Positions 3,328 through 43,544 of a stretch of 64,000 nt of DNA are shown here, piece by piece. The position numbers and the translations under genes were made by a program. The DNA comes from Vulcanimicrobiota bacterium (lineage in GTDB: Bacteria; Vulcanimicrobiota; Xenobia; Xenobiales; JADMJV01): assembly GCA_019637395.1 (NCBI GenBank), contig JAHBVR010000023.1:1-64000 (forward strand), in the 5' to 3' direction. Below the pieces are notes generated by a model. The model did not search any database. It was not told the DNA's origin and saw nothing but the letters and a program-made list of their open reading frames with translations. The number at the start of each line of letters is the position of its first letter. Positions within the stretch are counted from its first letter, which is position 1.

Positions 3328-3588
3328 TCAGGGTGCGGCGGCGGTGAAGCCGTCCCTGGCTCCCTGCACCAGTCCGGCGGCTCCAAAGGTGAAGCTGGCG
3401 GCGATGGCGGCGCCCCCGCCGCAGGCCGCAATCACGGGAGGGAAGAGGGTCAGCAGGGCGGGACCGGCCACCACCGCGCCCACACCGGCCGTGAAAACAC
3501 TTACGCCGGCTCCGAAGCCGATTCCCAGGCCGATTCCACGCAGACATTCGAGAACTCCGTGCTTGACCGCATTGGCGAACCTTTGCAT
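3328..3588 (-). CDS. Small glycine-zipper-like membrane protein
   Basis: This 86-residue product is dominated by Gly/Ala/Val. It has two long hydrophobic segments with regularly spaced glycines (GIGLGIGFGAGVSVFTAG at about 18-35 and ALLTLFPPVIAACGGGAAIA at about 44-63). There is no signal peptide and few charged residues outside the ends. A purine-rich AGAGG lies upstream of the ATG at 3588. Composition resembles the larger Gly/Ala-rich protein at 27112-27897, but I cannot show homology. Likely a two-helix membrane hairpin. The function is unknown. Confidence 0.6.
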   Translation of the reverse strand: MQRFANAVKHGVLECLRGIGLGIGFGAGVSVFTAGVGAVVAGPALLTLFPPVIAACGGGAAIAASFTFGAAGLVQGARDGFTAAAP

Positions 3589-6902: not shown

Positions 6903-9296
6903 ATGTCCAACTCCACCCTCGAACCCATGCATCCCATGTCTGATTGGAATCCAGCCGACATTTTAGAGACTTTCACGGCGGGAATGAACCCGGCTCAAGC
7001 CCGGGCCGTCAGTATCACCGAAGGACCTCTCTTGATCCTGGCCGGCGCGGGCAGCGGCAAGACGCGCGTGCTCACCCACCGCATCGCCTATATTCTGGCC
7101 AGCAAAAAGGCGCGCCGTAACCAGATTATGGCCGTCACTTTCACCAACAAAGCCGCCAAAGAGATGTCGGAACGCATCGCCCACCTGTGCGGCAAAGGTC
7201 GCTTTCCGGATTTGGGCACCTTTCACTCGGTGTGTGCCCGCTGGTTGCGCCGCGAATCGGAAGCCCTGGGACTGAACGCCCAGTTCGCCATCTACGCGAC
7301 GGCGGAGCAACTGGTGGTGATGAAAGAAACCGTTCGCGATCGGGGCCTGGACGATAAGAAGTTTACCCCGCGCGGCATGCTCAGCATGGTTTCCAGTTGG
7401 AAAAATCAAATGGTCACGGTGGACGAAGTGAAGCGCCGGGCCCGCAACGCCTTCGAACGCGATCTGGGCGAGATCTATGATCTCTACCAGCGCAAGCTGA
7501 AACAGAACCAGGCTCTGGATTTCGACGACATCCTGCTCAAGACGGTGGAGATGCTGCGCGACCACGCCGAGATTCGCCAGCGCTACCAGGAGCGCATTCG
7601 CTACGTCATGGTCGACGAATATCAAGACGTCAACGCGGTGCAGTATGAGTTGCTCCGGCTGTTGGCGGCCGGGCATCGCAATCTATGCGCGGTGGGCGAT
7701 GACGACCAGAGCATCTATGCCTTTCGCGGGGCGGATGTGTCGATTTTGCTGCGCTTCGAGAGCGACTTCCAGGACGCGCAGGTGGTCAAGCTGGAGCAGA
7801 ATTACCGCTCCACTCAGATGATCCTGGACGCGGCCAACGCGGTGGTGGCCAACAATTCTTCGCGTAAAGCCAAGCGTCTTTTTACCGACCGGGTGGGCGG
7901 TGAAAAATTGCATCTCTTTCTGGCCGGCGACGGTCGCGACGAAGGCCGATTCGTGACGCGCGAAATCAAACGCCTGCTGCCCACGCGGTCCGGTTACAAA
8001 GACTTCGTGCTGCTCTACCGCACCAATTCCCAGTCGCGCCTGCTCGAAGAAGCCATGATTCAGGCCAGCATTCCCTATAAGATTGTGGGTGGACTGCGCT
8101 TTTTCGAGCGCAAAGAGATCAAGGACGTGCTCGGCTACCTGCAGGTAATGATCAATCCCGCCGACAGCCTGGCGCTACGCCGTATCATCAATACGCCCAC
8201 CCGGGGCATCGGCGCCACCACCATGGAAAAGTTGCTGCAGGCCGCGGCCGAGCGCGAAATTCCGCTCTGGGAAGTGGTCAGCGATCCGGCCCGTTTCGAG
8301 GTGACCGGCAAAGCGCGCGGCGCCATGGAGGCTCTGGTGGGCTGGATCACCGAGTTACGTGCCCAGGTCAGCGGCCTGAAAGTCACCGAGTTGGTGGAGA
8401 GAGTGCTGGAACACAGCGGCTATCGTAAGTGGCTGCTCGACGATGACAAAGTCGAAGCCCAGGTGCGCCTGGAAAACCTGGACGAACTGATCAACGTGAC
8501 CAGCGAGTACGACCGCAACGCCGAAGATGGTTCCCTGGACGGATTTCTAGCCGAAGTCAGTCTGCTCTCCGACCAGGACACCTATGCCGAAGACGCCCAG
8601 GCGGTCACTTTGATGACTTTGCACGCCGCCAAGGGTCTCGAGTTCCCGGTGGTTTTTCTGGCCGGTTTGGAGGAAGAGACCTTTCCTCATATCCGCTCCA
8701 TGGATGACCCCGAGCAGATGGAGGAAGAACGCCGTCTTTGTTATGTGGGCATCACCCGCGCCAAAGATCAGTTGTTCATCACCTCGGCTCAGTCGCGCGA
8801 GCTTCACGGCACGCGCGTCCCGCGGCGGCCCTCGCGTTTTCTGGCGGAAATTCCCAAGTCCCTGACCAATATGGTCATCCCGGAGCGCCCCTCTTTTCAG
8901 GAACCGCCCGCCATCGGCTCGGGCAAGTGGAAGGGCTGGGGGCATCAGCAGCCATCCAGGCCGGCTCCCCCAAGCTATGCGCCGGCCGGCCCTCAATTCA
9001 AGGTGGGCGACAGCGTCACTCACGCCGTCTTCGGGCCGGGCCAGGTGGACGCCGTCGACAAAGATGTGGTCACCGTCACTTTTGAAAAGGGCCAGAAGAA
9101 ACTCAAGCAAGAGTTCCTCAAGCCGGCGGCCCCCACGGGGGGCGGTTCCAGCTTGAAAGTCGGCGACCGCCTGTGCCACCCCCGCTATGGCAATGGGGTG
9201 GTAAAATACGTAGACGGTAGTGGCGTGACCACCATCTTCGGCAACCTTACCTTGCTCTTGCCGGCCGCCGAAGCTGCCCGCCTGCAGAAGCTTTAA
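6903..9296 (+). CDS. pcrA: UvrD/PcrA-type superfamily 1 DNA helicase
   Basis: ATP-dependent 3'-5' helicase for repair and replication-conflict resolution. The motifs appear in order: Q-motif and Walker A ([12 protein letters not shown], about residues 46-57), Ia ([12 protein letters not shown]), Walker B ([15 protein letters not shown]), III ([13 protein letters not shown]), IV (QNYRST), V ([17 protein letters not shown]) and VI (YVGITRAKD). After a Pro-rich linker the C-terminus has two consecutive Tudor/CarD-like segments, [15 protein letters not shown] and [15 protein letters not shown]. PcrA normally has one such RNA-polymerase-binding module. At 797 residues it is slightly longer than usual. 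ATG 6903 directly follows an inverted repeat. Confidence 0.93.
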
Positions 9297-9339
9297 GGAG
9301 GAGGGAAACCCGGGCAAAGCTTTCGAAAGGCTGCGGCCT

Positions 9340-10596
9340 ATGAAAACGATTGCCATGCTTTTAGCCGGGGGCGAGGGAAGCCGCCTCACCGTTCTATCCG
9401 AGAAGCGCGCCAAGCCGGCCGTTCCTTTTGGCGGTAAATACCGAATCATTGACTTTACCCTGAGCAACTGCGTCAACAGCGGCATCTACACGGTGGGCGT
9501 GCTCACTCAGTATCGTCCCCACAGTCTCAATGAGCACATCGGTATCGGTAAGCCCTGGAACCTGGACCGCAGTCGCGGCGGCGTGCGCCTGCTGGCTCCC
9601 TATCAGGAACGTGGCGGGCAGCGCTGGTACGGCGGCACGGCCGACGCCATTTATCAGAACTGGGGCTTCATCGAGGACCAGGCGGCTGACGCCGTGCTCA
9701 TTCTCTCGGGCGACCACATCTATAAGATGGATTACGCCAAGATGATTGACTACCACGTGCAGCGCAAAGCCGATTTTACCGTGGCGGTCATGCCGGTTCC
9801 TTTAGAAGAAACCGATCGTTTTGGGATTATGACCATCGACGACCAGTCCAACATCGTAGAGTTCACGGAAAAACCCAAGAAGCGCGACAAAGGCAATCTC
9901 GCCTCGCTGGGCATCTATATCTTCAGCCGGCGCGTGCTGCAAGAGCGGCTCGAAGTGGAACGCCAAAAAAATCCCGACCTGGATTTCGGCAAACACGTCA
10001 TCCCTGCTCTCATCTCGGGAGGTTACCGCTGCGTGGCTTACCGCTACGAGTCCTATTGGGTGGACGTCGGCACCCTGGATTCTTACTGGGCTACCAGTCT
10101 GGAGCTGACTCGGCCCAGTCCGGCTCTGGACCTTTTTACCGACCACTGGCCGGTGCTGACCCGTTCGGAGGAACGGCCGGCGGCGCGTCTGGGCCCGCAG
10201 GCCAAGGTGCAGTCCAGCCTGATTTCCAACGGTTGCGTGATTCGCGGCCTGGTGCACAACAGCGTGCTCAGTCCCGGAGTTCAAGTGTCTCCGGGAGCGG
10301 TCGTGGAAAACTGTGTGATCATGAATGATTGCTGGATCGGTCCGGGCGCCCGGCTTGACCGCGTGATCGTGGATAAGCAGGTGGTGGTGGGAGCGGGCGT
10401 GACCATCGGGCCCGGTGACGATTCGGTGCAGAATAAACTGCTGACCGACAAGATGACCACCGGCTTGACCGTCATCGGCAAAGGGGCCGTCATTCCCGTC
10501 GGTTGCCGGCTGGGGCGCAACGTGCTCATCAACAGTGACCGGGAAGAACATCACTTTCCCAAGAGCAACGTCGTCGAAGACGGCGAGACGGTTTAA
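9340..10596 (+). CDS. glgC: Glucose-1-phosphate adenylyltransferase, catalytic subunit
   Basis: Makes ADP-glucose from ATP and glucose-1-phosphate, the committed step of glycogen synthesis. The 418-residue protein has the intact pyrophosphorylase loop [10 protein letters not shown], the [17 protein letters not shown] segment, the catalytic [10 protein letters not shown] and the sugar-phosphate-binding FTEKPKK. A left-handed beta-helix follows from about residue 290. The second, related gene follows after 9 nt, so the two products are probably co-translated and may form a hetero-oligomer. Only the first copy keeps both the loop arginine and the RAKP lysine. Confidence 0.93.
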
Positions 10597-10605
10597 GGAG
10601 CTTTT

Positions 10606-11862
10606 ATGTCGAGAGCATTGGCAATGATCATGGCTGGCGGCCCCAGTCCCAACCTCAGCGTCATGAGCGAAATCCGCGTGGCTCCGGCCATTCCCTTTGG
10701 CGGCAAGTACCGTCTGATCGACTTCAGCCTGTCCAATTGCGTCAACAGCGACATTTATAATGTAGCCGTCATCACTCAGTATCTACCGCAGAGTCTGAAT
10801 GAGCACCTGGGGACGGGGGCGCCCTGGGATCTGGACTTGATGACGGGCGGCCTGCGCGTGGTGCATCCCTATCGCGGCGGGCGTTTCGGAGACTGGCAGC
10901 GGGGAACCGCAGACGCGGTTCGGCGCAATCTGGACTACTTGAAAGAACAGCCCGAAGAAACCGTGATGGTTCTCTCCGGCGACCATATCTATCTGATGGA
11001 CTACCGGCCGCTGCTGCGCCAGCATCATCAGACCGGCGCCGATCTGACGCTGGCCGTGCGCCGCGTCAGTCCTCACGATGTCCACCGCTACGGCATTGTG
11101 GCCCTGGGTCAGGAGGACGTGGTCGAGGGATTTGAAGAAAAGCCGCGCCGCGCCCGCGAAGCGCTGGCCAACATGGGAGTCTACGCTTTTAAGAAGGATG
11201 TGCTGATCTCGCTGCTCGAGAAAAACGACTACGTGGACTTCGGCCGCCACCTAGTGCCGGCCATGGTGGAGGGCAACATGAAGGTGCGCGCCCATCATTT
11301 CCCGGGTTATTGGGCCGATATCGGCACGGTGCAGTCTTACTGGGAAGCCAACATGAGCCTGCTGGCTGAAAATCCGGCGCTGGATCTCTATGATCCGCAT
11401 TGGACGGTGCTGACTCGCAGCATGGAGCGCGCTCCCGTCAAATGCGGCGCCGTGGCTCGAGTAGATGGGAATATCCTTTCCAACGGCTGCCGCATTGACG
11501 GCGTGGTGGAGCACAGTGTGCTTTCTCCCGGCGTGGTGGTGGCCGAAGGAGCGGTGGTGCGTAATAGCATCATCCTGCACGACACCGTGATCGAAGCCGG
11601 CGCGGTGGTGGATCGTTGCATTGTCGACAAGAATGTCCACGTTGGCAAAGGCTGCCTGCTGGGGGTAGGGGACGACAACACGGCCAACAAAGAGCTTCCC
11701 GACTGGTTGAATACCGGCCTGACCCTGGTGGGCAAGGACGCGGTCTTGCCCGAAAAGCTGGAAGTCGGCCGTAACGTGGTCATTCACTCGACCACCCGAG
11801 CGGAAGATTTCGCTAAGAAGAAGAAAGTGGCCAGCGGCAGTTTTGTGGGGGAAAAGCCCTGA
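10606..11862 (+). CDS. GlgC paralogue with degenerate active-site loop, likely regulatory subunit
   Basis: This 418-residue protein is colinear with the upstream GlgC and clearly a tandem duplicate. The nucleotide loop reads [10 protein letters not shown] instead of [10 protein letters not shown], so the catalytic Arg is lost. RAKP has become RVAP, losing the Lys. [10 protein letters not shown] and the EKP sugar-phosphate site remain, as does the C-terminal beta-helix. Plant large subunits and Firmicutes GlgD show comparable losses and act mainly as regulatory partners. The same role is inferred here. AAGGAGC lies before the ATG. The stop TGA overlaps a probable CTG start of the next gene. 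Confidence 0.88.
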
Positions 11863-14981: not shown

Positions 14982-16160
14982 ATGAAAAAGAATCTGTCGA
15001 ATCTCTGTCTAGCTGGCCTCATCGCCCTGGCGGCCGTGGTGGCCACCGGTTGCGGATCTGATGATGCCGACTTTATCAACAATGTCCCATCGACCAACCT
15101 CTCTGAATATGTCATCATTCCCAATGCCGGAGTGGCGGCCAATGTCCAGGGGGCGCTGGTCATTAAAGGTGTCAATACCGTCGATGGCACCAGCTCGATC
15201 GTCAATAATACGTTTGCTTCTGCAAATACCGCCAACCCGGTGGCTGTGCGCAGTCACCCCAAAATCAATGTGTTCTACGCTTTGAATCAGGGAACCGGGC
15301 AGTTGACCAGCTATTCGGTCGGTTCGAACGGCGCCATCGCGGAGCTGAATTCGGTGGCCTGTCCTGTACCTGCCGTTGCCGCCAGTAACGCTCTGGTCGA
15401 CTCGGCCTACCTGATCGTTCATCCCGCCGGCGGAGCCGTTTATGCAGGCATCCCGGGCCTGCTTCGCCAGTTCAACGTCGCCAGCGATGGCCGCCTGACC
15501 GCCAGTGGCTTCCCCGATGTGAACGTCGGCGCGGGCGGCTGGGACGGTGACTTCAGCCACGGCGGAGGTCAACTGCACGTTCCCTTCGGAAGCGCCGTTA
15601 GAACCTACACTGTGGCCAGCACTTATCAGTTGACCTCCCCGGTTGACAGCGCTCTGCCGGCTGGATCGGTTGTCACCGATGTCGATGTCCGTGTCGGCCA
15701 GGCTTCTCTGTTCGCCGCCGGGGCGGCTAACGCCGATGCGGATGGCCGCATCTGGTCCTTCTCGGTGGCGGACGGTGTGCTGAGTGCTGCGCCCACCTCG
15801 GTGGTTTCGCTTACGGGTTCCCCCCTGGGAACCGGCGACATTCATCCGAATGGCCAGTACTATGTTGGTGCCCGCAATACCAACTCGGTGTTCGCCTTCA
15901 CTTCGGACAACGAAACCGGCACTCTCACCGGTATCGGTACTTCTCTTATCACTGGCGCCAACGCTATCTTCACCCAGGTCGATCCTCTGGCGGCTTTCGT
16001 GGTGTCGACCCAGGGCACGGGCAACAACAATATCGATGCCCGCTCCCTCGACCAGAATGGCATCATCACTGGCTCGACCAGCGACAATCAGGGGCTGAAT
16101 GTTCCCAAGTCGTTTGACTTCGTTCAGTTCATCAACGGCGGTTACGTCACCCGTACCTAG
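14982..16160 (+). CDS. Lipoprotein with lactonase-type beta-propeller
   Basis: The start at 14982 gives MKKNLSNLCLAGLIALAAVVATGC, a lipoprotein signal peptide with lipobox VATGC (Cys24). The mature part (about 368 residues) is made of repeated blades such as TSYSVGSNGAIAELNS, FNVASDGRLTASG and AFTSDNETGTLTG, typical of the 7-bladed 6-phosphogluconolactonase-like family. Ser/Thr/Ala/Gly-rich composition suits an exported protein. Probably an outer-membrane-attached propeller. Enzymatic lactonase activity is not established for such lipoproteins. A strong terminator follows 22 nt downstream. Confidence 0.82.
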   Translation: MKKNLSNLCLAGLIALAAVVATGCGSDDADFINNVPSTNLSEYVIIPNAGVAANVQGALVIKGVNTVDGTSSIVNNTFASANTANPVAVRSHPKINVFYALNQGTGQLTSYSVGSNGAIAELNSVACPVPAVAASNALVDSAYLIVHPAGGAVYAGIPGLLRQFNVASDGRLTASGFPDVNVGAGGWDGDFSHGGGQLHVPFGSAVRTYTVASTYQLTSPVDSALPAGSVVTDVDVRVGQASLFAAGAANADADGRIWSFSVADGVLSAAPTSVVSLTGSPLGTGDIHPNGQYYVGARNTNSVFAFTSDNETGTLTGIGTSLITGANAIFTQVDPLAAFVVSTQGTGNNNIDARSLDQNGIITGSTSDNQGLNVPKSFDFVQFINGGYVTRT

Positions 16161-16181
16161 TCCGTTTCTTGACTCCCCCTA

Positions 16182-16210
16182 AGAGCCCCGGCCTCGGCCG
16201 GGGCTCTTTT
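16182..16210 (+). terminator. Rho-independent terminator
   Basis: AGAGCCCCGGCC (16182-16193) pairs perfectly with GGCCGGGGCTCT (16196-16207), followed by a T-run. It ends the lipoprotein transcript. Confidence 0.93.
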
Positions 16211-16265
16211 GCTGGGAGAGGGAAAGAGGGGCAACTGCGGCGCTTGGCAAAGAGCGCCCTCTGAA

Positions 16266-17603
16266 ATGCCGGGAACTCTCCTGTTTACCAACGCCACCAT
16301 TGTTACGCTGGGTGAGACCCCAGAGGTCATTCGGGATGGCGCCGTATGGATCGAGAACGGCAAGATTCGTGGCTTTGGTTCTGCCGAAGCGGTCCTCGCG
16401 CAGGCTCCGCCGCTGGCCAGGCTGGATCTGCAGGGGCGGGTCCTCATGCCCGGCCAGATCAACTCTCACGATCATCTTTACAGTGCCTTCGCGCGGGGCA
16501 TTGCCTTGAAAGACGAAGCGCCGGCCAATTTTCTGCAGATTTTGCAGCGTCTCTGGTGGCGGCTGGATCAGGCGCTTTCCAGCGAGGACGTTTATCTCAG
16601 CGCTCTGCTCGGTTTTACCGAGGCAGTTCAACGTGGGGTCACCACGATAGTGGACCATCATGCCAGTCCCGCCTGCATCGAAGGAAGCCTGGACCGTCTG
16701 GCTGAGGCCAGTTTACAGGTCGGGCTGCGGGCCTGTCTGTGTTACGAAACGACCGACCGCCACGGGGAAGTGGGCGCCCGTCAGGGAGTGCTGGAAAATC
16801 TGCGCTTCGCCCGCTACTGCGAGAGGCTGCGCGACGGCCGGCTGGCCGCCGCTCTGGGTTTGCATGCCTCCATCACGGTGGACCCGGCCACCCTGCAACT
16901 GGCGCTCAAGGAATGGCCGGCCGATGTGCCGGTGCACGTGCATGTCGCGGAGGATCTGTGCGATCTGGAGCACAGCCTCAAGACCTATTCCCGGCCCCCG
17001 CTGCAGCGTCTGCTGGAGGATGGTCTGCATGATCGTCCGGTTTGGGCGGCTCATTGCATTCATCTGCAGCCCCACGAAAAAGAATTGCTGGCCAGGCATT
17101 CCGTAACCGTCATGCACAACCCGCGGTCAAATATGAATAACGCGGTGGGGTGCGCTCCCGTCCAGGAGTTGATCAACCTGGGAGTTCCGGTAGCCTTGGG
17201 GACGGACGGTATGAGCCAGGACCCCTCCGAGGATGCCCGGGCCCTGGCCGTCATTCACAAGCACCAGGCGGGCGATCCGCGCGGCTTCGAGTGGAACAAT
17301 ATTTACCGAGTGGCCTTTCTAGAGCCGGCCCGACTGGCCAGCCAGAGGTTCGGCCGCCAACTGGGACAGATAGCCGTGGGTGCGGAAGCGGACTTGATGG
17401 TGCTGGACTATGATCCGCCCACCCCCCTGAACGGTGGAAACTTTCTCGGCCACTGGCTCTTTGGCATGGGAACGGCTCCGGTCTGGGGCACCTGGGTGGC
17501 GGGAGACTGTGTCTTTTTCAAGGGCGAGGTGGCCGGCATCGATGCCACTGATCTGAAAGCCCGTTGCCGAGTGGCGGCGGAAAAATTATGGGAGCGCTGG
17601 TAA
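16266..17603 (+). CDS. ssnA: SsnA-type amidohydrolase/aminohydrolase
   Basis: A 445-residue member of the metal-dependent amidohydrolase superfamily, closest in pattern to SsnA. A beta-sandwich start ([21 protein letters not shown]) leads to the metal motif SHDHLY (HxH), then [15 protein letters not shown] and WAAHCIHLQ (His ligands), [10 protein letters not shown] and the catalytic [13 protein letters not shown] 16266 is chosen because it begins the sandwich. SsnA is tied to purine and selenate-related catabolic loci in enterics. Its substrate is unresolved. glyA and a carbamate kinase gene lie downstream. Confidence 0.87.
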
Positions 17604-36932: not shown

Positions 36933-36942
36933 GTGGCTGGGG

Positions 36943-37082
36943 TTGGCCACCGAGTGACCAGGCTTGGCCACCGGTGAACAAGATCGGCTCGCAGGAGTCG
37001 GCCCCCGGGGGGTTGGCCACCGGTGATCAGGTTTCGGTCACCGGTGACCAAGACGGGCTCGCAGGAGTCGGTCCGTCTTCAG
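36943..37082 (+). repeat. Tandem duplication, 2 x 70 bp
   Basis: Two 70-bp units start at 36943 and 37013. Each contains two related 19-mers spaced 21 bp apart (TTGGCCACCGGTGAACAAG at 36964 and variants at 36943, 37013, 37034). Each also shares the segment GGCTCGCAGGAGTCGG after the second 19-mer. Non-coding, between a terminator and the DUF7689-like gene. CACCGGTG is palindromic. Confidence 0.75.
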
Positions 37083-41238: not shown

Positions 41239-41586
41239 CTAGTTGCGGCGCTCTTTGACGCGAGCATCCTTGCCCACCTTGTCGCGCAGATAGAAGAGAC
41301 GGGCGCGCCGGACGATACCGCGGCGAACCACTTCCAGCTTGTCCACGCGGGGGCTGTGAATCAACACCGTGCGCTCGACCCCGACGCCGTGGGAAATCTT
41401 GCGCAGAGTGATGGTCTCGCGCAGGCCGCCACGGCGATTGCGGGTGATGCAGACTCCTTCGAAAGCCTGAAGACGCTCTTTGCCACCTTCAACGACCTTG
41501 AGCCAGGCGCGCACGGTGTCGCCAGGTCCGAACTCGGGGAGTTCTTTCTTCATCTGCTCGGCTTCAAGAGTTTGAATGATTTGCAT
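41239..41586 (-). CDS. rplS: 50S ribosomal protein L19
   Basis: A 115-residue L19, the usual length. [20 protein letters not shown], then [30 protein letters not shown] and the C-terminal [15 protein letters not shown] are highly conserved. L19 sits at the 30S-50S interface. The promoter at 41619-41647 and a GGGAAAGGA stretch precede it. Confidence 0.97.
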
Positions 41587-41618
41587 GTCAGTGACGTCCT
41601 TTCCCTTAGGAAGTCGGA

Positions 41619-41647
41619 ATCATAGCACTTCGCTCGGGTGCTGACAA
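41619..41647 (-). promoter_or_regulatory. Sigma-70-type promoter of rplS
   Basis: On the minus strand TTGTCA (41647-41642) and TATGAT (41624-41619) are separated by 17 bp, close to consensus. The -10 lies 33 bp before the rplS start codon. Confidence 0.8.
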
Positions 41648-41809
41648 GAGTTCTCGCTAAATTCTTAGGGAAGGTCAGCAAAGCTCCATCATCAGGCCGG
41701 TCTGGGGTTGGGGTTCGGCTTGCGCTCGGGTCTTCCAGGCCCACCGGAGGCCTCCAGCTTGAGGCCCTCGCTCTCCAAGCCTTGGACGTAGAACTCCAAC
41801 AGGGATTGG

Positions 41810-42101
41810 CCTCCGCGGAGCAGCCGTGGCGGAGTCTCCGCCATCAGGTATCCGCATCCTCTCGGAAACGGCCCCAGACCAACCTCCGCGGAGCAGCCGT
41901 GGCGGAGTCTCCGCCATCAGGCCTCCGCCCCCCCTCGGAAACGGCCCCAGACCGGCCTCCGCGGAGCAGCCGTGGCGGAGTCTCCGCCATCAGGCCTCCG
42001 CCCCCCCTCGGAAACGGCCCCAAACCGACTTCTGCGGAGCAGCCATGGCGGAACCTCCGCCATCAGACCTCCGCCCCCCTCGGAAACGGCCCCAGACCAA
42101 C
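41810..42101 (+). repeat. Minisatellite, four copies of a 73-bp unit
   Basis: Units begin at 41810, 41883, 41956 and 42029 with exact 73-bp spacing. They are nearly identical, and the fourth is more diverged. Each unit contains the palindrome CTCCGCGGAG, the inverted repeat GGCGGAGTCTCCGCC and a CTCGGAAACGGCCCC segment. The period is not a multiple of three, so it is non-coding despite open frames. It fills most of the 641-bp gap between rplS and asnS. Confidence 0.92.
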
Positions 42102-42242
42102 CTCCATGCCTCAGGTATCCGCACCCCATGCGGTCGGGCAGTCGGGGTTGTATCTGCATAGCTGAAATCCATTCGAAACAAAGGAGGGCCGCCGGGGCCC
42201 CGCAAAGCCATCGGGACATTCACGAGGATGGGTTTTGAAAGC

Positions 42243-43544
42243 ATGAGCAAGGCACCCTGGGTACGCATTGACAAGGTCGGAGAGCACTCCGGTGAAATCG
42301 TGGAAATCCGCGGTTGGCTGAGCCGACTCCGCTCCTCTGGCAAGATCAGCTTTTTGCAGTTGCGCGACGGTTCGGGAAATATCCAGGGTGTGATGGCCAA
42401 AGCCGACGTGGGCGAGGAGATTTTTGCCAAGTCCAAGAGCGTGGGTCAGGAATCCTCGCTGCGCGCCTGGGGCAAGGTGAACCCGGACGAGCGGGCGCCC
42501 GGCGGTTACGAGTTGCACCTGACCGATATCGAAGTGCTGCACCATGCCGAGGGTTATCCTATCACTCCCAAGGAGCACGGCACCGACTTCTTGATGGACC
42601 ACCGCCATCTCTGGCTGCGTTCCAACCGCCAGCACGCCATCCTGAAAATTCGCGCCGAGATCATGAAAGGCATCATCGACTGGCTCGACGATCACGATTT
42701 CCTGCGAGTGGACACGCCGATCCTTACGCCTAGCGCCTGTGAGGGCACCACCACTCTGTTTGAAACCGACTACTTCGAGTCCAAGGCTTACCTGGCCCAG
42801 TCCGGCCAGCTCTACAACGAGGCCACCGCCATGGCCTTCGGCAAGGTCTACACCTTCGGGCCCACCTTTCGCGCCGAGAAGTCCAAGACGCGCCGCCATT
42901 TGATGGAGTTTTGGATGGTCGAGCCGGAAATGGCCTTCTGCGATTTCGAAGAGAATATGCGGGTTCAAGAGCAGATGCTGGAGTACGTGGCCCAGCGGGT
43001 GCTGGAAAAACGGGCGCGCGAACTCAAGGTGCTGGAGCGCGACACCGCCAAGCTGGAAAATATCAAGGCGCCTTTTGTGCGTCTGGCCTATGACGACGCC
43101 GTCAAGCTGCTCAACGAAAAGGGCGTGGAGTTCGCCTGGGGCGGCGACTTCGGCGGCGGCGATGAAACCATCATCGCCGAGTCTTTTGATCGGCCGGTTT
43201 TTGTGCACCGCTTTCCTACCGCCATCAAGGCTTTTTACATGAAGCCCGATCCGGAACGACCGGAAGTGGTGCTGGGAGCCGATCTGCTGGCTCCGGAGGG
43301 CTACGGCGAGGTGATCGGAGGCGGGCAGCGTTTAGATGACCTGGCGCTCCTGGAGCAACGCATCAAAGATCATCACCTGCCCGAGGAAGCCTATGCCTGG
43401 TACGTGGATCTGCGCCGTTACGGCTCGGTGCCGCACTCGGGCTTCGGGTTAGGCCTGGAGCGCACGGTGGCCTGGTTCTGCGGCCTCGAGCACGTGCGCG
43501 AAACCATTCCCTTCCCACGTATGCTCTCACGCCTCTATCCCTGA
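42243..43544 (+). CDS. asnS: Asparaginyl-tRNA synthetase
   Basis: Class IIb synthetase. The N-terminal OB fold ([20 protein letters not shown]) is followed by the catalytic core: [16 protein letters not shown] (motif 1), [20 protein letters not shown] (motif 2) and [13 protein letters not shown] (motif 3). The motif 2 flank [14 protein letters not shown] marks AsnRS over AspRS. The 433-residue length is normal. ATG 42228 is an in-frame alternative, but its SD is too close. It lies just below the 73-bp repeat array. Confidence 0.94.

Follow-up and report, generated by a model that had tools for sequence, protein, structure and literature searches.

The gap between rplS and asnS

The window, by which we mean the whole stretch of 64,000 nucleotides analysed here, belongs to the genome of an uncultured bacterium of the Eremiobacterota (G000; 7.66 Mb in 36 contigs), whose AsnS finds its closest named relative in the Candidatus Eremiobacterota MAG SCN18_25_8_15 (97%). 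Between rplS (41239-41586, minus strand) and asnS (42243-43544, plus strand), which both lie outside the element, TRF detects a minisatellite at 41810-42105 with a period of 73, 4.1 copies, 91% matches and a score of 480. Its units follow one another on the plus strand at 41810-41882, 41883-41955 and 41956-42028, each of 73 bp, and at 42029-42100, where the most diverged copy measures 72 bp. The first-pass annotation had described four copies at exact 73-bp spacing. This holds for the double-stem hairpin cores (41808-41860 on the plus strand, then 41881-41933, 41954-42006 and 42027-42079), which are 73, 73 and 73 bp apart; in the right halves of the units the spacing is 73, 73 and 72, as copy 4 lacks 1 nt there. 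The inner hairpin TGGCGGAGnCTCCGCCA is present in three exact copies and one with a single mismatch, while CTCCGCGGAG is intact in copies 1 to 3 and altered in copy 4. With up to 3 mismatches allowed, TGGCGGAGnCTCCGCCA occurs 7 times in the window, where shuffled sequence would give 0.84. The element starts where it had been placed and ends later, at 42127 instead of 42101: the four copies are followed by a fifth unit (42101-42127, plus strand) that is similar to unit 1 in its tail and has lost its hairpin. A CRISPR array is ruled out, as the entire 73-bp unit repeats, including the stretch between the hairpins, and there are no differing spacers. A coding repeat is ruled out as well, in agreement with the earlier annotation, since 73 is not a multiple of 3 and reading frames break inside the array.

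The array does lie between rplS and asnS, but inside the remnants of a gene rather than in ordinary intergenic DNA. In the congeners G001 and G003 the gap holds an intact minus-strand gene of ~231 aa with a nucleotidyltransferase-like motif, scoring slightly under the Pfam cut-off. In the window, blastn to these orthologs identifies the 3' remnant of the gene at 41665-41811 (minus strand), and the gene restarts at 42128 with its 5' remnant (42128-42159, minus strand), which comprises the start codon and the first ~10 codons (MQIQPRLPDR). The array occupies the ~500 bp missing between both ends. As the gene is intact in congeners and survives here only as remnants, the comparison of sequences indicates that it is dispensable and that the array arrived as a replacement of its middle. 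The gap is a repeated site of gene loss, since in G002 (L049) the same gene has been broken independently by other sequence, with 103 of 230 residues matched. In G004, other sequence stands before asnS. No array was found in the rplS-asnS gap of G001-G004.

As RNA, the whole array folds much more stably than shuffled sequences (z -5.25; 0 of 200 shuffles), while single units fold barely better than theirs (z -1.7 to -0.1). An Rfam covariance-model search of 41500-42300 gave no match up to E 1. The stretch directly before asnS (42160-42242, plus strand) contains AAAGGAG and CCGCAAAGCC; it is conserved in G001-G003, which have no array there, is partly recognisable in G004, has no Rfam match and might be an uncharacterised leader. 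Elsewhere in the window, at 36939-37071, a second minisatellite, shorter than the array, lies just behind a terminator-like T-run and consists of 1.9 copies of 70 bp that include palindromic stretches; the orthologous place in G001 (L278, ~3384-3491) is a shorter gap without a minisatellite.

Dispersal and insertion of the repeat family

A covariance model (A1) with the stems CGCGGAG/CTCCGCG and TGGCGGA/TCCGCCA was built from 14 copies and used to score the best 150 of ~7,000-11,000 candidates per genome. Among the best 150 of 10606 candidates in G000, 16 copies were found at five places, weaker ones possibly having been missed: four in the window (contig C16), two at C7:100k, four at C7:129k, five at C9:182k and one at C1:151k. 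The earlier suggestion of a dispersed element, with a genome search as its own test, is thereby borne out. G002 has six copies among its best 150 candidates, all single and at six places, and none were found among the best 150 candidates in each of seven further genomes (G001, G003-G006, G010 and G033). A DNA search with the unit in 38 genomes likewise places it in G000 and G002 only, and the exact core has 0 matches in the contigs of named genomes, a set from which records near the window's genome are perhaps excluded. Identity inside arrays is highest at C7:129k (94%) and amounts to 72-86% between places in G000. In 8 of the 11 places, a coding-like ORF of the same orientation has its stop codon no more than 35 nt before the start of the element; the exceptions are the window copy, C1, which has doubtful ORFs only, and C408 of G002, which borders a contig end. 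A 46-bp tandem repeat on another contig of G000 (C23; L163:13867-14027) also folds better than its shuffles.

Comparison with congeners shows two of these places as insertions. At C7:129k, 354 extra bp comprising the array, with GGCGCT at both ends, separate two convergent genes; in G001, G002 and G003, which have no array there, the same genes almost touch. At C7:100k, behind topA, 1107 extra bp with CTTAGG at both ends comprise an array together with a gene of ~265 aa (L023:2009-2806, minus strand) for a putative HTH-nuclease protein; in G001 and G002 the next gene follows topA directly. Array and gene were thus inserted behind topA together, as one block. The probability of two such 6-bp end matches arising by chance is ~1e-6, allowing five registers each. 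For the C1 and C9 places, no comparable empty site was present in the sequence compared.

A putative HTH-nuclease gene beside hairpin arrays

The partner gene has 17 homologs in four congeners (G001-G004). The N-terminal part of its product is an XRE HTH, with Pfam HTH_3 recognised in 14 of 14 homologs. The C-terminal part carries the motifs R.DS.LE, PQ, RPDG, ELDG..H and D..R. D196 is invariant and D215, G216 and H219 are nearly so, and weak matches to the DUF559 profile occur in 5 of 14 homologs (best E 8e-4). PADLOC and NCBIfam matches are confined to HTH-type models, and a structure search with the full-length protein aligned the HTH domain only. Modelled alone, the C-terminal part reaches a mean pLDDT of 87.3 and adopts an order of helices and strands that we take to fit the PD-(D/E)XK core. 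Foldseek returned nothing at E <= 0.001 for this model, its best E being 0.25 and its best rows including Cdn1, Card1, Can2 and DrdV. The best VIA rows feature the Bax1 nuclease (Z 8.0, rmsd 2.7, 102 aligned residues) and the endonuclease-like NGO0050 (Z 6.5, rmsd 3.2, 94 aligned), followed by restriction enzymes and by TnsA at 3.7, with small GTPases at Z near 3.5-4 marking the background. The motif, the weak profile matches and the mid-range Z scores together suggest a PD-(D/E)XK-like domain. Homologs were found neither in plasmids or viral contigs, with the L238 protein as query, nor in phages, with that of L243.

The partner genes stand beside minisatellites far more often than random intervals do. 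Linkage was defined as a minisatellite with a period of 35-130 and a TRF score of at least 150, located at most 150 bp from the gene. Of the 18 genes considered (the 17 homologs of G001-G004 and the G000 gene), 10 are linked (L023, L236, L238, L240, L241, L243, L245, L247, L248 and L251), or 9 of 18 when the 39-bp repeat beside L251 is left out. Random intervals lie near a minisatellite in 1.8% of cases in G000 (443 kb sampled, with an upward bias because the window and three of the family's own places were included) and in 4.8% of cases in 800 kb of G001; the binomial P for 10 of 18 is 1e-13 and 2e-9 against these backgrounds, respectively. The 39-bp repeat is possibly coding, its codons reading by eye as a G-A-P-T-G-like peptide. 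Four of the eight unlinked homologs (L237, L242, L246 and L250) lie directly at a contig end or no more than 300 bp from one, and we infer that arrays tend to break assemblies there. The other four (L239, L244, L249 and L252) are away from contig ends; an array lies 1.8 kb off L239, and L249 keeps a short version of the array that is expanded at its syntenic counterpart L247.

The 800-kb sample of G001 contains the L236 gene, which was already among the 18, and one additional homolog, L261, with a 71-bp array at a distance of 105 bp. Counting this gene, the array stands upstream of the gene in five of 11 linked cases, downstream in five and on both sides in one. The L261 gene and its hairpin array occupy 15871-16611 and 16716-17194, and a related 71-bp array with 69-73% identity (L265:14307-14852) is found ~78 kb away on the same contig.

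Each gene lineage appears with a repeat of its own. L241 in G002 and L243 in G001 are syntenic orthologs with 77% protein identity and have a common unit (81%), and the other gene lineages carry unrelated units. The L243 unit recurs in seven further arrays of the 800-kb sample, six of them on the gene's own contig, which makes up 100 of the 800 kb (clustering P 2e-5). In 7 of 10 arrays of this family, a sense stop codon precedes the array by 2-76 nt, in one fixed orientation. In most linked arrays, one strand or both fold more stably than shuffled sequence; this is not so for the L245 array. In the window and L243 families, arrays without an adjoining partner gene are in the majority.

Origin of the arrays

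We favour, with a probability of about 0.6, the explanation that the array is a REP-like, non-autonomous hairpin repeat of an HTH-nuclease gene-repeat system and has replaced the middle of a gene. A REP-like repeat would have been copied into the dispensable gene between rplS and asnS, replacing its middle, and the array would then have grown by tandem duplication. In general terms, we infer that the HTH part would recognise the cognate repeat and the nuclease part would cut DNA, upon which the repeat, or repeat and gene, could enter a new site, as a rule immediately after a stop codon, with arrays arising later through repair or slippage. The window array would be one product of such protein-driven spreading, where the insertion event also deleted half a kilobase of gene. 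A more specific formulation, held tentatively and at slightly less than even odds, is that the hairpin minisatellites of each lineage are spread by their own XRE-HTH/PD-(D/E)XK endonuclease and not by a tyrosine transposase. Insertion would take place behind stop codons, for the most part in the neighbourhood of the endonuclease gene, would duplicate 6 bp of the target and would now and then destroy a gene, as between rplS and asnS.

Several observations argue against a gene-repeat system. The window array lies antisense within a gene and has no direct repeat at its ends, unlike the other places, and the 6-bp end repeats are few, amounting to two cases. For eight of the 18 genes, the nearest 150 bp on either side contain no array. 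The predicted nuclease fold has no Foldseek match at E <= 0.001. The alignment of the hairpins shows no covariation beyond shuffles, with 0 pairs changed on both sides and the stems conserved. Finally, G002, a genome 82% complete, has the window-type repeat and no close homolog of the G000 gene, the best reaching 36%.

Another explanation is that of ordinary minisatellites made by replication slippage in hairpin DNA, with arrays and HTH-nuclease genes merely sharing tolerant gaps behind stop codons and the gene being irrelevant to the repeats. The loss of the hairpin in the fifth copy and the 1-nt indels of the window array agree with slippage, and insertions do the least harm behind stop codons. 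Slippage, however, does not disperse sequence families, which these repeats form, nor does it account for the insertion of array and gene as one block behind topA. The linkage of 10 of 18 genes, against 2-5% for random intervals, and the unit that is common to orthologous genes and clustered around one of them also disagree with it, and we regard this explanation as unlikely.

A role of the arrays as RNA appears still less probable. Transcribed at 3' ends, the repeats could block exonucleases or attenuate read-through, or their RNA could restrain the linked protein in the manner of a type III toxin-antitoxin system. Such a role would fit the strong folding of the window array as RNA and the sense hairpin that follows a stop codon by no more than 35 nt in 8 of 11 window-family places. 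A type III antitoxin precedes its toxin, whereas the arrays are found as often downstream as upstream of the linked genes, and the window and L243 families consist mainly of arrays that adjoin no partner gene at all. The missing Rfam match and covariation also speak against it. Descriptions of ToxIN present tandem repeats beside the gene of a nuclease-like protein, a likeness to our arrangement; the repeats described here differ in being dispersed without the gene and standing on either side of it, and the C-terminal domain of the partner is DNA-endonuclease-like.

Classical REP/BIME elements mobilised by a REP-associated tyrosine transposase (RAYT) would resemble our arrays in being palindromic and extragenic and in their sites behind stop codons, between convergent genes and in tandem clusters, as reported for REPs (PMC3733652, PMC3116915). 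This very improbable explanation is already contradicted by the distribution of repeats and Y1 genes: G002 has repeats and no Y1 match, while G004 has two Y1 matches and no repeat. The sole Y1_Tnp match of G000 (L171:499-854, at the end of contig C17), which by eye we take to be of IS200 type, is frameshifted, and none is present on the contigs of the arrays. The window unit, moreover, has neither a GTAG nor a CGTC tag. A phase-variable leader, as suggested in the first-pass annotation, that controls asnS could draw on the position upstream of that gene and on the ability of tandem repeats to change copy number, but is hardly credible for an array that lies inside an opposite-strand pseudogene and has no Rfam match, with the ~80 bp before asnS conserved in congeners that lack an array, and an assembly artefact, which that annotation had named as a refutation, is just as hard to uphold: the copies differ from one another, the family occurs on four contigs and a comparable array stands at syntenic loci in two independent assemblies. 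By this evidence the array is not an artefact, and an effect on asnS is neither shown nor needed.

The gene-repeat system that we prefer can be best compared with REPIN/RAYT, for which the literature describes dispersed hairpin families that each belong to a gene of the same genome and form clusters next to it; in Thauera, copies have been noted to be most frequent near the gene (PMC3116915, PMC2817692, PMC3733652). Set against these accounts, our repeats are alike in their dispersal, gene-bound families, tandem clusters, sites behind stop codons or between convergent genes and copies near the gene. A lineage-specific repeat likewise accompanies the gene, in 10 of 18 cases, with an HTH-nuclease in the stead of RAYT. 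The partner here is an XRE-HTH protein with a PD-(D/E)XK-like domain, whereas RAYT is a Y1 HUH transposase, and the units, of ~50-73 bp, are arranged head to tail. With REPs in general, the repeats have in common a short palindrome (here a double-stem hairpin) and extragenic positions behind ORFs, the window copy being the exception; the window family has 16 copies at five places among the best 150 of 10606 candidates, compared with the more than 100 per genome given for REPs (PMC2817692). Among the nine units examined, GTAG/CTAC occurs in one (L238) and CGTC/GACG in one (L248). The CGTC-tagged REPs, REP-like repeats described in PMC3733652 as lacking a dedicated transposase, differ from the window unit in their tag and from our system in that a candidate partner gene exists here. 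The partner itself resembles DUF559/Vsr-like endonucleases in its weak profile similarity (5 of 14) and the ELDG..H motif, and differs in its fusion to an XRE HTH and its linkage to hairpin arrays. As the partner is no Y1 transposase and the tags are missing, the system would work like REPIN/RAYT without being a member. It is best read as resembling REPIN/RAYT in its pairing of gene and repeat, with an unrelated enzyme in a putative mobilising role.

Titles and abstract openings of the open-access literature contained no account linking hairpin, tandem or REP repeats to DUF559 or HTH-nuclease genes, and the system seems to represent a way of repeat spreading that has not been described before, analysed in depth here in one Eremiobacterota genus. 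It has long been puzzling that some REP-like repeats have no known transposase, the CGTC REPs being a case that lacks one according to PMC3733652. If our reading is true, a second, unrelated class of enzyme is associated with hairpin repeats, and this lifestyle would have arisen more than once. It would also provide a testable candidate for the spreading of orphan repeats. The window case shows how such repeats break genes, and the system, if real, would explain why the intergenic minisatellites of this genus form families.
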